Source: Occultella glacieicola (GTDB lineage Bacteria; Actinomycetota; Actinomycetes; Actinomycetales; Beutenbergiaceae). From it: DNA of 64,000 bases. This document shows positions 16,930-23,607 of this stretch, in pieces. The stretch's first letter is position 1, and each line of letters begins with the position of its first letter. Where the stretch lies: assembly GCF_004353825.1 (NCBI RefSeq), contig NZ_SMNA01000001.1, forward strand, positions 372,001-436,000. The letters run 5' to 3'. The notes beneath the pieces are model-generated. The model was not told where the DNA came from. It made no database searches and was given only the letters and a program-made list of their open reading frames with translations. The position numbers and the translations under genes were made by a program.

Positions 16930-17753
16930 TCAGCCGGGCCGGCCGGGTTGGTCCTGGTCGTGGGCGGCGCGGAGGTCGTCGTAGGCGGCGTCGGCGGCCG
17001 AGGAGAGGTCGGCCTCGCTGGGGATCGCCTCGCGAAGGCCTCGGGGAAGGGTCTCGTCGAGCAGGAAGTCCTGCAGGCGGGTCATCAGCGCTTGCTCGGC
17101 GACGGGACCCGTGAGGTCGAGGAAGTCCAGCACGTACGGGTCGCGGGTGAGCTGTTGGGCGAGCTCGGAGTCCGCGGCCGGCAGGCGGGCCGGGAAGTTC
17201 GACGGCGCCGCCCGGTGCGGGTGTGCAGGCGGTTCATGATCTGGTTCAGCAAGACGTTGCGGGACCAGCCGTGCTCGACTGCGGCCGTGGCGTACCAGTC
17301 CCGCTCGGACGTCTCATCGAGCTTGTCCAGGAGCACGGTGATGTGGCCCCAGGGCAACTGCGCAACAGGCTGTTGCGCGACCTCGTCGGGCCAGGTGTTC
17401 GCGAACGTGCGCATGTAGACGAGGTTGCGCTGGGAGAGGCCGCGCATCTGCGGAAATTCTTCCCGCAGGTCGGTGGAGAGTCGAGCGATGACACGTGTGC
17501 TCCAGCCTTCGACGCCCTGCCTCTCCAGAATCGTCCGGCCGAGCCGCCCGTACAGGCCGACGAGTTCGGTGTTCACCACCCGCTGTGCCCGCCAGCGCGC
17601 CTCGGCGACGGTTCGCTTCAGGTCGTCGAGCAGTCGTGGGTAGTCGTCGGGAAGGTTCTTGTAGTCCACAGGGCAGGAGGCGGTGCAGTCGGGTGCACCG
17701 GTGCCGGCACCCACGCATTGGGGGCGGGAGCGGGTGCCTAGCGTCGTGGCCAT
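16930..17753 (-). pseudogene. DUF1016 (YhcG-type, PDDEXK nuclease family) gene, frameshifted and truncated
   Basis: From 17753 the frame encodes the DUF1016 N-terminal domain: LPDDYPRLLDDLKRTVAEAR, then VNTELVGLYGRLGRTI, RGLSQRNLVYMRTFA and QLPWGHITVLLDKL. After NRLHTRTG (near 17210) the frame is lost. The expected continuation (AAPSNFPARLPAADSELAQQ, then YVLDFLDLTG) is encoded in another frame, consistent with loss of one G in a G-run. That second frame soon leaves homology after TRLQDFLLDETLPRG and ends at 16930 without the PDDEXK nuclease core. The gene is therefore a remnant of an orphan YhcG-like protein, a family often seen beside restriction systems. None is nearby. Confidence 0.8.
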
Positions 17754-18054
17754 GAGAGCCTCACCCTCGCCCATGTTTGCCTCGCCCGGACTGCCCGGCG
17801 GCGCCGCGTCCGCCCTCCTGGCCGCGGCCGCCGAGCAGATCCGCCTCGGCCGGGCCGCTTACGCCGCCGTGCTGCCGGAGCACTGGGAGTCCCCGGCCGC
17901 CCTTGCCTACCGGCGCCGGATCGACGCGCTGACCTCGGCCGCCGACCGGCTCGCCGGGACGCTCGACGGTGCGGCCGCGGCGGCCCGGGTCCACGAGAAC
18001 CAGAGCGCCGCGGTCCGGGCGGCGCTCGCCGGCCCCGCCATGACCCCGCGATGA
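17752..18054 (+). CDS. Small helical WXG100-like protein, 100 aa
   Basis: A 100-residue Ala-rich protein predicted to be two helices around a turn. Its size and the HWESPAALAYRRRIDAL segment, with a Trp near residue 46 and a heptad-like spacing, recall WXG100/ESX substrates, but the exact W-x-G is W-E-S here. It may be a partner or chaperone of the lipase-like protein encoded next, because its stop overlaps the ATG of that gene (ATGA at 18051-18054). ATG 17752 lies 7 bases after TAGCGT with no ribosome site, suggesting a leaderless message. An in-frame ATG at 17773 is an alternative start. Confidence 0.65.
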   Translation: MRASPSPMFASPGLPGGAASALLAAAAEQIRLGRAAYAAVLPEHWESPAALAYRRRIDALTSAADRLAGTLDGAAAAARVHENQSAAVRAALAGPAMTPR

Positions 18055-19613
18055 GCGGCGCTCCCGGGGTGGCGATGGTGCCCGACGGCGCGCCCTCCAG
18101 CGCCGCCGCGAACTCCGCCGCCGCGCAACTCGTCGTCTACGGCACGCCACTGGCCGCGGACCCGGCGGAACTGCGGGACCTGGCCGCCGCCGTCGACCGT
18201 GGTTCGGCGCAGGTGGAGCGCGGCCGGGCCCTGCTCCGGCGGGCTCTGGCGATCCTGCAGGAGACCGCCGTCCTGGACGCCGGCTCCGCCGGGCCGGCGA
18301 TCGCCCGGTGCTGGGAGGTGCTGCTCTCGATCAGTGCGGTCATCTCGGATGCGGACGCGATCGCGGCGGCGCTGCGCGCGGCGGCGACCGACTACGAGCG
18401 GGCCGAGGCGGAGGCGCGAGCGGGGTTCACCCGGGGTCTCACCGTGACGGCGCCGCCTGCCCTGGGACTGCCGTGGGACCCGATCGGTATGTTGCGGCCG
18501 CTGACGATGCTGGGCGTCGCGTTCGCCGGGGCGCTCGCGCGCGGGCAACTGACACCGACCGACGCCCAGTTCGGCGCCGCCCTTGAGTCATGGGCCGGAA
18601 CCCTGACCGGGATGTTGGGCGTGTCCTGGGTTGGCACGGAACGTCCCGACTCCTCGACTGTGGTGCTCGCCGGGCTGCTCGCTCCCGCGCTCACCGTCGG
18701 TCTGACCATCGGTGCCACGGCCCGCGTCCACCAGGTCGACCCACCGGGCGCGGTGCCCACCGGATCGCCCGCCACGTCCACGGGACCGGCGCCGACCGGG
18801 GTCGCCGGGGCTATCGGCAGCCTGTACGGGCTGTATCCCCGCCACGGCGGCCCGGAGGCCGCGATCCGGATCGACCGCGTCGTCGGGCCGGACGGAGCGG
18901 TGTCCTGGCAGGTCCTGGTGCCCGGCACCCAGACCGAACTGGTCCCCGAGCTGGCGCTGCCCGAGCCCGCGTTCGGGCCCCCGCATCCCGGCTGGGCAGT
19001 CTCGATGCCCGCGCCGGGGTTGGTCCTGCGGCAGCCGGACAACCCGATCAACAACCGCGGTAACCCGTTCGACTGGGGCACGAACCTCCAGGCCTTCGCC
19101 GCGATGGACACCGCCGTGGAGGACGGCGTGATCCAGGCCATGGAGCAGGCGGGCATCCCACCGGACGAGCCGGTGCTGCTCGTAGGCCACTCCCAAGGTG
19201 CGATGACGACGATGCGGCTCGCCGAGGACCCGGCGTTCACCGAGCGGTTCGAGGTCCGGTCCGTGATCACCGTCGGCGGGCCGGTGGGCCACATCGACAC
19301 CCCCGGCGACGTGGCGGTGCTCAACATCGAGCACGTCGATGACCTCACGTCGGGGTTGGAGAACACCGCCAACCCGGGCCAGTCCGGCCGGACCACGGTG
19401 ATCCGGGACCTGGCCGCCTCACCCGATCCGGCGGATCGAACGGTGACCTCGGTCGCGCAGGCGCACGACATCCCCGCCTACGTGCGCACCGCGCAGATGA
19501 TCGACGCCTCGACCGACCCGGCCGTGCGCGCCTGGCTCGCGGCCTCGCAGGACGTGCTCGGGGGGCCGTCGGACTCCGCGGCCTCGAGGTACTACCAGAT
19601 CGAGCGGGAGTGA
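18051..19613 (+). CDS. WXG-like N-terminus fused to an alpha/beta-hydrolase (lipase/esterase-like)
   Basis: A 520-residue protein. Residues 1-130 are Ala-rich and helical (PAELRDLAAAVDRGSAQVER and ATDYERAEAEARAGF), like ESX-secreted or WXG-type N-termini. A Pro/Thr/Gly linker follows near 230-250. The C-terminal 270 residues are an alpha/beta-hydrolase with the nucleophile motif LLVGHSQGAMTTMRLA (GHSQG), and a His in VAQAHDIPAY may complete the triad. There is no signal peptide, so export, if any, would rely on a type VII-like route. It overlaps the 100-residue WXG-like gene. I do not know the substrate. Confidence 0.75.
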   Translation: MSGAPGVAMVPDGAPSSAAANSAAAQLVVYGTPLAADPAELRDLAAAVDRGSAQVERGRALLRRALAILQETAVLDAGSAGPAIARCWEVLLSISAVISDADAIAAALRAAATDYERAEAEARAGFTRGLTVTAPPALGLPWDPIGMLRPLTMLGVAFAGALARGQLTPTDAQFGAALESWAGTLTGMLGVSWVGTERPDSSTVVLAGLLAPALTVGLTIGATARVHQVDPPGAVPTGSPATSTGPAPTGVAGAIGSLYGLYPRHGGPEAAIRIDRVVGPDGAVSWQVLVPGTQTELVPELALPEPAFGPPHPGWAVSMPAPGLVLRQPDNPINNRGNPFDWGTNLQAFAAMDTAVEDGVIQAMEQAGIPPDEPVLLVGHSQGAMTTMRLAEDPAFTERFEVRSVITVGGPVGHIDTPGDVAVLNIEHVDDLTSGLENTANPGQSGRTTVIRDLAASPDPADRTVTSVAQAHDIPAYVRTAQMIDASTDPAVRAWLAASQDVLGGPSDSAASRYYQIERE

Positions 19614-19615
19614 CG

Positions 19616-20008
19616 TCAGCGGGTCTGCTTCTTCTTCCCGGAGGGGAGGATGACGCTCAGGATCACCGCGATGATCGAGATCACCAGGGCTGCCAGCACC
19701 GCCGACCAGAACCCGTCGACCGTGAGGCCGTAGTTCGTGAACGAGGTCAGCCACGTGGTGAGCATCAGCATCAGGGCGTTCACGACCAGGTGGAAGAGCC
19801 CGAGGGTCAGGATGTAGAACGGGATCGACAGGACCTGCACGATCGGTTTGACGACCGCGTTCACGAGGGTGAAGACCAACGCGACCACCGCCACCACGAT
19901 CAGGGTGCCGAGCGGCGTGCCGTCGGTGGCCAGTTCCAGCCCGGACAGCCACAACGAGGTCAGCCAGATGGCGATCCCGTTGATGATCACTCTGATGACG
20001 AAGCTCAT
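19616..20008 (-). CDS. Phage-holin-superfamily-IV-like membrane protein (PF04020)
   Basis: A 130-residue protein with four hydrophobic segments: IRVIINGIAIWLTSLWL, LGTLIVVAVVALVFTLVNAV, IPFYILTLGLFHLVVNALML, and FWSAVLAALVISIIAVILSV. The motif NAVVKPIVQVLSIPFYILTLGLF is diagnostic for PF04020, a membrane family widespread in bacteria and named after holins, without proof of lytic function. It ends in KKKQTR. The ATG at 20008 was chosen over the upstream in-frame start because homology begins there, and CAGGAT lies 6 bases upstream. It is convergent with the lipase-like gene, only 2 bases apart. Confidence 0.88.
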   Translation of the reverse strand: MSFVIRVIINGIAIWLTSLWLSGLELATDGTPLGTLIVVAVVALVFTLVNAVVKPIVQVLSIPFYILTLGLFHLVVNALMLMLTTWLTSFTNYGLTVDGFWSAVLAALVISIIAVILSVILPSGKKKQTR

Positions 20009-20109: not shown

Positions 20110-21252
20110 ATGGCATCGCGCATCCCCGGACCCCCCGCCTTCGACGCCCCGGCGCCGCCCCCGGAGGCACCGCCGGTGCGACTGCGCAAGGAACTCCTGG
20201 ACCTGCCCGCGCACGTGCCCGGGGCCGTCGGCGCCACGGCAGCCGTGTTCAAGCTCTCCGCCAACGAGCTGCCGTTCCCGCCGCTGCCCGCGGTGATCGC
20301 GGCCATCCACGACGCCGCCGAGGACGTGAACCGCTACCCCCAGGTGTACGGCGCCCGGCTGCTGCGGGCGATCGCGAGCCACCACGGCGTGGTCGAGGAC
20401 CAGGTGCTGATCGGCAACGGGGCGGTCGCGCTCGCCGAACTGCTGATCCGCTCGACGTGCGCACCCGGCGACGAGGTGGTGCACCCGTGGCGGTGCTTCG
20501 AGGCCTACCCGGCCGTGGCCCGGGCGAGTGGGGCGGTCGGCGTGCCGGTGCCCCTGAGTCCGGACGGCAGCCACGACCTGGCCGCGATGGCCGTCGCCGT
20601 CACCGACCGCACCCGGGTGATCGTGGTGGCCACGCCTGCGGACCCCACCGGGGCCTCCCTCACCCACACCGACCTGCTCGCCTTCCTCGAGGTGGTGCCG
20701 AGCGACGTCATGGTGATCCTGGACGAGTCCTACGTCCAGTTCGACCGCACCGCAGATGCGATCGACTCCCGCGCCTTGTTGCCCGTCCACAAGAACGTGG
20801 TGGTGCTGCGGACCTTCTCGAACGCCTACGGCCTGGCCGGCCTGCGGATCGGCTATGCCCTGGCTCGGCGACGACTGGTGCGGGTGCTGCGGCGGGTGTC
20901 CACCCCGTTCGGGGTCAGCGACCTCGGCCAGGTGGCGGCCATGGCTGCCCTCGGGCAGACGGCACTGGTCGAGTCCCGAGTGGCGGAACTGGTCGCCGAG
21001 CGGGACCGGGTCGTGGCGGCGCTGCGTAGCCAGGGCTGGGATGTCGGCGACCCCCAGGGCAACTTCTACTGGCTGCCGCTCGGCGAGCACAGCTCCCTGT
21101 TCGCCAAGGACGCCGTGCAGTCCGGCATCACCGTGCGCCCGTTCCCGGGCGAGGGGGTGCGGATCTCGATCGGCGAGCCCGAGGCGAACGACATCGCACT
21201 CGCCGTCGCGTCCCGGTGGGTGCACCGGCGCACGGGCAGGGGCGACGAGTAG
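20110..21252 (+). CDS. HisC-like class I/II aminotransferase fold protein lacking the PLP lysine
   Basis: A 380-residue protein of the histidinol-phosphate/aromatic aminotransferase family: KLSANELPFPPLPAV near residue 55, NRYPQVYGARLLRAIA, ILDESYVQFDRTADA and the C-terminal VRISIGEPEAN (phosphate/carboxylate Arg). The PLP site is altered. The usual TFSKAxGLAGLR reads TFSNAYGLAGLRIGY, so the Schiff-base lysine is Asn238 (AAC at 20821). The NNPTG motif reads ADPTG, so the PLP-contacting Asn is Asp178. It may be a non-catalytic or repurposed protein, or carry a sequencing error. ATG 20110 lies 6 bases after CATGCT, with no ribosome site. Confidence 0.8.
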   Translation: MASRIPGPPAFDAPAPPPEAPPVRLRKELLDLPAHVPGAVGATAAVFKLSANELPFPPLPAVIAAIHDAAEDVNRYPQVYGARLLRAIASHHGVVEDQVLIGNGAVALAELLIRSTCAPGDEVVHPWRCFEAYPAVARASGAVGVPVPLSPDGSHDLAAMAVAVTDRTRVIVVATPADPTGASLTHTDLLAFLEVVPSDVMVILDESYVQFDRTADAIDSRALLPVHKNVVVLRTFSNAYGLAGLRIGYALARRRLVRVLRRVSTPFGVSDLGQVAAMAALGQTALVESRVAELVAERDRVVAALRSQGWDVGDPQGNFYWLPLGEHSSLFAKDAVQSGITVRPFPGEGVRISIGEPEANDIALAVASRWVHRRTGRGDE

Positions 21253-21392: not shown

Positions 21393-21442
21393 TTGCACGT
21401 CGCGAACCATTGATCCACACATCCACACGAATGGAGTTCGGT

Positions 21443-22594
21443 GTGATTCAGTCCGACATCCACGGGGAGACCCCCCACGTCGGCACACAGGATGACGACC
21501 TCATCCAGTTGCTCACCGTCACCGGCGAGCGCGTGCACCATCAGACGTATTCATCCCGAGTCGCCCACCTCGACACCGAGGCCCTCGAGGGCCTCTACCG
21601 CGACATGGTCCTGGTGCGCCGGTTCGACACCGAGGCCACCGCACTGCAGCGGCACGGCGAGCTCGGACTCTGGCCCCAGTGCCTCGGCCAGGAGGCCGCC
21701 CAGATCGGCTCCGGCCGGGCGCTCGCCGCCCAGGACCACGTGTTCCCCTCCTACCGGGAGCACGGTGTCGGCTGGACCCGCGGCCTGGACCTGCGCAAGG
21801 TCCTGCACCAGTTCCGTGGCGAGGACCACGGCGGCTGGGACCCGGCCGAGCACAACTTCTCCCTCTACACCCTGGTGATCGGCTCGCACGCCCTGCACGC
21901 GACCGGCTTCGCCATGGGCGTGCAGCGCGACGGTGACGTCGGCACCGGTGACCCCGACCGCGACCGCGCCGTGGTCGCCTACTTCGGTGACGGCGCCACC
22001 TCCCAGGGGGACGTGAACGAGGCGCTCGTCTTCGCGGCCGTCAACGACGCCCCGGTGGTCTTCTTCTGCCAGAACAACCACTGGGCGATCTCCGAGCCCA
22101 CCGAGCGGCAGAGCCGGGTCCCCCTGTTTCGCCGGGGCTCCGGGTTCGGCGTGCCGGCCGTGCGCGTGGACGGCAATGACGTGCTGGCCTGCTACGCCGT
22201 GACCCAGGAGGCCCTCGAGCGCGCCCGCAGCGGGGGTGGCCCCACGTTCATCGAGGCCGTCACCTACCGGATGGGGGCGCACACGACCTCCGACGATCCG
22301 ACCCGCTACCGCAGCCGGGCCGAGGAGGACTACTGGCGCACCCGCGACCCGATCGACCGGCTCCGACTGCACCTGGTCGCCGAGGGTACGGCGCCCGAGT
22401 TCTTCACCGCCCTGGACGCCGAGGCCGACGCCTACGGAGAACAGATCCGCGACTACTGCCGGTCCATCCCCAAGGCGGAATCGTCCCGGATGTTCGAGCA
22501 CGTCTACGCCGCCGAGCACACCCTCGTGGAGTCCGAGCGAGCCTGGTTCACCGAGTACGAGGCAGGCTTCGCCACGGAAGGAGCGCAGCGATGA
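21443..22594 (+). CDS. 2-oxoacid (pyruvate or branched-chain) dehydrogenase E1 alpha subunit
   Basis: A protein of about 383 residues, the thiamine-diphosphate-binding subunit that decarboxylates a 2-oxoacid. The ThDP motif begins VVAYFGDGATSQGDVNEALV and ends FFCQNNHWAIS (GDG to NN spacing is right). YRMGAHTTSDDPTRYR is the conserved phosphorylation-loop region of E1alpha. GTG 21443 is preferred because GGAG lies 6 bases upstream. ATG 21431 gives four more residues but has no ribosome site. It overlaps the E1beta gene (ATGA). The two-subunit E1 and the E2 sequence fit either a branched-chain or a pyruvate complex, and I cannot separate them. Confidence 0.92.
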   Translation: MIQSDIHGETPHVGTQDDDLIQLLTVTGERVHHQTYSSRVAHLDTEALEGLYRDMVLVRRFDTEATALQRHGELGLWPQCLGQEAAQIGSGRALAAQDHVFPSYREHGVGWTRGLDLRKVLHQFRGEDHGGWDPAEHNFSLYTLVIGSHALHATGFAMGVQRDGDVGTGDPDRDRAVVAYFGDGATSQGDVNEALVFAAVNDAPVVFFCQNNHWAISEPTERQSRVPLFRRGSGFGVPAVRVDGNDVLACYAVTQEALERARSGGGPTFIEAVTYRMGAHTTSDDPTRYRSRAEEDYWRTRDPIDRLRLHLVAEGTAPEFFTALDAEADAYGEQIRDYCRSIPKAESSRMFEHVYAAEHTLVESERAWFTEYEAGFATEGAQR

Positions 22595-23607
22595 GCGAGA
22601 ACACCGGCACCCAGCGGATCCCGATGGCGAAGGCCATCAACCTCGGGCTGCGCCGCTCCATGGAGCGGGACGACAAGGTCCTGCTCATGGGCGAGGACAT
22701 CGGTCGCCTCGGTGGGGTGTTCCGGGTGACCGATGGCCTGCAGAAGGACTTCGGCACCACCCGGGTGGTCGATACCCCGCTCGCCGAGTCCGGCATCATC
22801 GGCACCGCGATCGGCCTCGCACTCGCCGGCTACCGCCCGGTCTGCGAGATCCAGTTCGACGGCTTCATCTTCCCCGCCTACGACCAGATCACCACCCAGC
22901 TGGCCAAACTGCACTACCGCTCCCGCGGACGCGTCGAGCTGCCGGTCGTCATCCGGGTCCCGTACGGCGGCGGCATCGGGGCCGTGGAACACCACAGCGA
23001 GTCGCCCGAGGCGCTCTTCGCCCACACCGCGGGCCTGCGACTGGTCAGCCCGGCCAACCCGGCGGACGCGTTCACGATGATCCAGCAGGCCATCGCGTCC
23101 CCGGACCCGGTGCTCTTCCTCGAACCGAAGGCCCGGTACTGGGACAAGGCGGACGTGGACGTGACCGCGGCGGACCAGGTCCTCGACCTCGGCGGCGGGA
23201 ACGGACTGCACCGGGCCCGCGTGGTGCGCCCGGGCACCGACCTGACGATCGCCGCGTACGGGCCGACGGTCGCGACCGCGATGGCCGCGGCGACGGTGGC
23301 CGAGCAGGAGGGGCACAGCGTCGAGGTCATCGACCTGCGTTCGATCTCCCCGATCGACTTCGACACGATCGCGGACTCGGTGCGCCGCACCCACCGGTTG
23401 GTGGTGGCGCACGAGGCCCCCGTGTTCTTCGGGGCCGGCGCCGAGATCGCGGCCCGGATCACCGAGCAGTGCTTCTACTCCCTCGAGGCGCCGGTGCTGC
23501 GGGTGGGTGGATTCCACGCGCCGTACCCGGTGGCCAACATCGAGGAGGACTACCTGCCGAACCTGGACCGGGTCCTGCACGCCGTCGACGCCGTTCTGGC
23601 GCACTGA
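22591..23607 (+). CDS. 2-oxoacid dehydrogenase E1 beta subunit
   Basis: A 338-residue partner of E1 alpha in the alpha2-beta2 decarboxylase. It begins with the family pattern RIPMAKAINLGLRRSMERDD, then VLLMGEDIGRLGGVFRVTDG and VVDTPLAESGIIGTAIGLAL, all conserved in transketolase-like E1beta. The C-terminal transketolase domain includes VVAHEAPVFFGAGAEIAARI and the final LPNLDRVLHAVDAVL. Its ATG overlaps the E1alpha stop (ATGA at 22591-22594), ensuring equal synthesis. The E2 gene follows after 32 bases. Confidence 0.94.
   Translation: MSENTGTQRIPMAKAINLGLRRSMERDDKVLLMGEDIGRLGGVFRVTDGLQKDFGTTRVVDTPLAESGIIGTAIGLALAGYRPVCEIQFDGFIFPAYDQITTQLAKLHYRSRGRVELPVVIRVPYGGGIGAVEHHSESPEALFAHTAGLRLVSPANPADAFTMIQQAIASPDPVLFLEPKARYWDKADVDVTAADQVLDLGGGNGLHRARVVRPGTDLTIAAYGPTVATAMAAATVAEQEGHSVEVIDLRSISPIDFDTIADSVRRTHRLVVAHEAPVFFGAGAEIAARITEQCFYSLEAPVLRVGGFHAPYPVANIEEDYLPNLDRVLHAVDAVLAH

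Follow-up and report, generated by a model that had tools for sequence, protein, structure and literature searches.

Many known pseudoenzymes arose by duplication, with an active sister copy remaining. Among relatives of PLP enzymes, Rv3778c, a cysteine desulfurase relative without the PLP lysine, has been judged likely to be non-catalytic (PMC12910592), and yeast Alt2 retains the conserved aminotransferase fold, its ancestral transaminase activity being gone (PMC5960717). The gene described here resembles Rv3778c in specifying a natural PLP-enzyme relative that lacks the PLP lysine (PMC12910592), but Rv3778c belongs to another subfamily and does not derive from an aromatic aminotransferase. 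Unlike the present protein, Alt2 retains the residues for catalysis as well as the PLP Schiff base, and a paralogue of it is active (PMC5960717). Proteins of the PLP fold without the Lys are thus familiar; what is unusual here is that the single-copy orthologue itself, vertically derived, has been altered. No earlier description of a protein of this type was found in the open literature (most subscription journals lay outside this scope).

The nearest solved structure to the product of the gene at 20110-21252 of the window (by which we mean the whole 64-kb stretch of DNA analyzed) is 4r2n, that of the aromatic aminotransferase Rv3772 from M. tuberculosis (PMC4703992). The product shares with this HisC2/aromatic aminotransferase (4r2n, 4r5z) 44% identity, the same fold, the substrate arginines and the PLP-holding Asp, Tyr and Arg, whereas Lys217, Asn157, Asn156 and Tyr15 of Rv3772 are Asn, Asp, Ala and His here. 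In profile searches, it scored 426.1 bits against NF002878 (PRK03321; cut-off, 374), matched PF00155 of Pfam at 6.8e-55 and fell below the threshold of TIGR01141, the equivalog for histidinol-phosphate transaminase (256.1 bits; cut-off, 276.55). The gene is thus above the family cut-off of the NF002878 aminotransferases of Actinomycetes and syntenic with intact members, but all 108 members sampled keep the Lys and NNPTG. Its start codon is kept across congeners. The gene and its conserved neighbours are as follows.

19616..20008, - strand: phage-holin-type protein with four TM segments, conserved divergent neighbour (start approximate; PF04020; syntenic across the family)
20110..21252, + strand: HisC2/aromatic-aminotransferase-family protein without the catalytic Lys, 380 aa (NF002878, PF00155)
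21440..22594, + strand: 2-oxoacid dehydrogenase E1 alpha (start approximate; TIGR03181 above cut-off; syntenic)
22591..23607, + strand: 2-oxoacid dehydrogenase E1 beta (PF02779/PF02780; syntenic)

The gene lies between the divergent holin-type gene and an E1 alpha/E1 beta/E2 cluster, as in intact relatives. The order of holin-type gene, orthologue and E1 alpha is the same in the genomes of genera g1, g2, g3, g5, g7 and g10; the g4 contig stops short of the holin-type gene. This shared position makes 20110-21252 the true orthologue rather than a duplicated copy. It is a vertically inherited, syntenic orthologue of the actinobacterial HisC2/aromatic aminotransferase, belonging by descent to the HisC2/PRK03321 family and lying by its active site outside the definition of a PLP-dependent aminotransferase. 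A first-pass annotation had called the protein HisC-like, which is borne out for HisC2 but not for HisC proper, an intact HisC1 being encoded elsewhere in the genome.

The same annotation had pointed to two altered active-site positions, a lysine replaced by Asn238 and a PLP-contacting Asn replaced by Asp178. Both replacements are present, but the count was too low: ten invariant positions are altered, eight more than had been noted. Asn238 sits in RTFSNAYGLAGLR, at a position where 4r2n and all of the relatives have Lys, and Asp178 lies within TPADPTG, where relatives read NNPTG. Those changes that map to the pocket or next to it are listed below, with residue numbers of Rv3772 taken from PMC4703992 and the mapping from an alignment of the product with 4r2n.

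20821..20823 (AAC), + strand: Asn238 for Lys217 of Rv3772, the Schiff-base residue; Lys in all 108 relatives, Asn in all four host-genus genomes
20641..20643 (GAC), + strand: Asp178 for Asn157 of Rv3772, an active-site residue; Asn in all 108 relatives, Asp in all four host-genus genomes
20638..20640, + strand: Ala177 for an invariant Asn (108-relative alignment)
20212..20214, + strand: His35 for the invariant lid Tyr (Tyr15 of Rv3772; alignment with 4r2n and 108 relatives)
20422..20424, + strand: Ala105 for an invariant Ser, next to the pocket loop with Gly84/Val86 (108-relative alignment and Rv3772 mapping)
20494..20496, + strand: Cys129 for an invariant Ser, adjoining the PLP-stacking Phe (108-relative alignment and Rv3772 mapping)
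20728..20730, + strand: Ser207 for an invariant Ala, between PLP residues Asp205 and Tyr208 (108-relative alignment and Rv3772 mapping)

The full set, identical in all four host-genus genomes, comprises Y35H, S51A, S105A, S129C, I135A, C174A, N177A, N178D, A207S and K238N, invariance being defined over all relatives with a residue at the position in an alignment of 108 relatives from the order plus Streptomyces, Nocardioides and others. In Rv3772, Tyr15 is a lid residue controlling the entry of Phe, and Asn157 touches the substrate carboxylate (PMC4703992). When positions were taken at 95% conservation, 12 of 109 were altered in the product (other sequences: median, 1; maximum, 8), and 8 of these 12 lie at or beside active-site residues named in PMC4703992 (hypergeometric p 0.005). 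In a control with the same reference genomes, the host genus altered 5 of 167 invariant positions in E1 alpha, 1 of 176 in E1 beta and 6 of 227 in E2, compared with 14 of 127 in 20110-21252. As judged from these alignments, the substitutions gather at the active site.

Other parts of the pocket are retained, including the substrate Arg that had been read as kept.

20722..20724, + strand: retained Asp205 (PLP pyridine nitrogen); D in 108/108 relatives and all 4 host-genus genomes
20845..20847, + strand: retained Arg246 (PLP phosphate; 108-relative alignment)
21136..21138, + strand: retained Arg343 (arginine switch, R322 of Rv3772; alignment, PMC4703992 mapping)
21160..21162, + strand: retained Arg351 (substrate carboxylate, R330 of Rv3772; alignment, PMC4703992 mapping)

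Besides these residues, Tyr76, Gly104, Val106, Phe130, Pro179, Tyr208, Gly248, Pro266 and Phe267 are kept. Of the features of a class I/II PLP-dependent aminotransferase, the product thus has Asp205 and Tyr208 for the pyridine ring, Arg246 for the phosphate, Arg351 for the substrate carboxylate and the fold, and lacks the Schiff-base Lys (Asn238) and the NPTG Asn (Asp178). An AlphaFold2 model built from 53 sequences reached a mean pLDDT of 88.8 and a pTM of 0.86; its top structural match was 4r2n (Z, 49.2; rmsd, 1.4 over 351 residues), and a confident HisC2 fold is kept in the model. The structural matches included, by the titles of the entries, an engineered K270N LL-diaminopimelate aminotransferase with amino acid ligands (3ei8, 3ei9), in which the Lys-to-Asn swap is identical and the fold the same. 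That protein is a man-made single mutant, whereas the one described here is natural and has nine more invariant positions altered. By analogy with what these titles state, a pocket with Asn for Lys can still hold a cofactor-ligand adduct.

All four sampled genomes of the host genus share the altered residues. The orthologues in three congener genomes, one of them assembled as a single contig of 5.6 Mb, are 91 to 93% identical and have the same Asn and Asp, while Lys and NNPTG were found in all other genera of the family with the orthologue. At codon 238, for which a comparison with homologues had been proposed, Lys is present in all relatives sampled outside the genus and Asn in all genomes within it. 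A pattern scan of 395 genomes of the class, restricted to the Asn replacement and to one spelling of the motif, found this form in the present genome only, plus one differently reading match, FWNAYGFAG. The changes come from one origin and four genomes, without convergent replication. The gene tree gives the host-genus stem a long branch (0.357 versus 0.244 for the g4 relative), but the Tajima relative-rate test on the stem protein rate was not significant (chi2, 0.2 to 3.4), and we therefore do not claim a general acceleration or an adaptive burst.

Among the four host-genus genomes, the gene is free of stops and has pairwise Nei-Gojobori dN/dS values of 0.063 to 0.150 with dS up to 0.40, these values being approximate given the simple method and the biased codon usage. 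HisC1 of the same genomes, with its SK and NNPTG, has values of 0.104 to 0.157, and E1 alpha and E1 beta have values of 0.06 to 0.15. The altered protein is under strong purifying selection and is as constrained as the genes of normal enzymes. Because its dN/dS is no looser than that of HisC1, which is intact in these species, 20110-21252 is not a decaying gene. It combines a lost catalytic residue, a retained fold and purifying selection, as a pseudoenzyme does. The first-pass suggestion of a pseudoenzyme or a repurposed binding protein gains support on sequence grounds, since Asn throughout the genus together with purifying selection is what a retained pseudoenzyme predicts.

In genus g8 of the family, the orthologue is absent from all eight genomes and the dehydrogenase genes are present. 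The host genus keeps pheA, an intact HisC1 (above the PRK03317 cut-off in this genome) and several other aminotransferases, and Rv3772 was essential in none of four screens of M. tuberculosis (PMC12910592). Because of these observations, the ancestral activity looks dispensable, and the way for the change would therefore have been opened. A prephenate dehydratase is present in the host genus and its relatives, so that a different aminotransferase presumably serves in their phenylalanine synthesis.

We favor, with a probability of roughly 0.6, the reading that 20110-21252 encodes a genus-specific functional pseudo-aminotransferase that does not transaminate and acts by binding a ligand or a partner. 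The altered protein has probably been given a new job in the host genus, non-enzymatic or at least different. On the host-genus stem, the Schiff-base lysine was lost (K to N) and the cofactor/substrate pocket reshaped (N to D plus eight more changes). Since no lysine is available for the internal aldimine or for proton movement, established PLP chemistry would not lead one to expect ordinary transamination. The product may still fold as the family dimer and act by binding; candidate ligands would be a PLP/PMP-like molecule or an aromatic acid, held by Asp205, Tyr208, Arg246, Phe130, Arg343 and Arg351, or else a protein partner. Because the corresponding Asn157 of Rv3772 contacts the amino-acid carboxylate, Asp178 would disfavor an ordinary amino-acid carboxylate, and the old ligand may not be bound in the old way. 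The role might then be one of sensing, sequestering or regulation instead of catalysis. More speculatively, the gene could exemplify the conversion, within a single genus and with no duplication, of an aromatic aminotransferase into a constrained non-transaminase. This protein might sense the status of PLP, amino acids or keto acids and could act on the 2-oxoacid dehydrogenase encoded next to it; alternatively, it might catalyse a new type of lysine-free reaction in the ancestral pocket.

It seems unlikely, if still worth weighing, that the protein is an enzyme of another chemistry that works without an internal Schiff base, for instance PMP dependent or cofactor free, via Asp178, His35 and Ser207. 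In its favor, the replaced residues are shared by all four genomes and under constraint, most PLP-anchoring residues are kept, and Lys-less fold-type I dehydratases of the ColD/E1 type provide a precedent, using His for Lys with PMP. However, the residue at the Lys position here is Asn238 and not His, and Asn is unable to serve as a general base like Lys or His. Moreover, there is no sugar-nucleotide context, the neighbours being those of the normal enzyme.

We give less credence to a hetero-oligomer in which the protein would be the non-catalytic subunit beside a different aminotransferase, for example HisC1, much as LCB1/SPTLC1 supports LCB2 in serine palmitoyltransferase. The cross-interface residues Tyr76, Pro266 and Phe267 are kept, and the genome has an intact HisC1 with Lys and Asn; this HisC1 is, however, only about 31% identical, and Rv3772 and Rv1600 form homodimers in their solved structures (PMC4703992).

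A dying gene, in which a redundant activity was lost first and the frame is still unbroken, would agree with the apparent dispensability of the ancestral function, given the g8 genomes, the other aminotransferases and pheA. This explanation is quite improbable in view of dN/dS values of 0.06 to 0.15 at dS up to 0.40, stop-free frames in four genomes and ten replaced residues that are identical in all four. We find it hard to credit that the protein still transaminates slowly, with a second lysine or external amines standing in for the lost one: the pocket arginines, Asp205 and Tyr208 are kept, but in one congener Arg takes the place of Lys228, the closest lysine upstream, and the other changes also hit PLP and substrate contacts. 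A sequencing or assembly error is rejected as next to impossible, since identical residues occur in four separately sequenced genomes, one of which is the single contig of 5.6 Mb.

Three further readings were set aside. The genome has no second HisC2, its next best match being 31% identical, and a paralogue with an active sister copy was rejected. Viral origin was likewise rejected, no relative of the product having been found on viral contigs and the synteny being vertical. An ancestral inactivation shared with g8 cannot be claimed: the branching order of g1, g4 and g8 has a support of 0.66 (concatenated genes, FastTree), which does not settle whether g8 or g4 is the nearer relative, and the g4 copy is intact.

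Here the sole copy of an almost family-wide enzyme gene was altered in place; related genera have the orthologue intact, and one genus has lost it. The ten defined substitutions in or near the pocket make this a clean natural experiment on the repurposing of a PLP enzyme. The locus is also a warning, since profile-based annotation would label the product a histidinol-phosphate transaminase.

Several minor observations concern the surroundings of the gene and its relatives. A search with Rfam gave no match in the window. The reverse-strand stretch at 17085-17774 encodes the N-terminal domain of DUF1016 (PF17761) alone, without the nuclease part, and looks like a decaying YhcG-type gene because congeners have fragments or a frameshifted copy only. 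The forward-strand stretch at 17752-19613 encodes a 100-aa protein and a 520-aa protein that has a hydrolase-like GHSQGA motif and is without a Pfam match; the latter is syntenic beside the HisC2 gene across the family at 29 to 43% identity. At the place of the missing gene in one g8 genome (L092 8200-15000), open reading frames inspected by eye comprise a sugar-type ABC transporter set and a ROK-like regulator. In a g9 relative (G022:C1:1523442-1524665), the orthologue aligns in two pieces around an insertion of about 50 residues, within one open frame.
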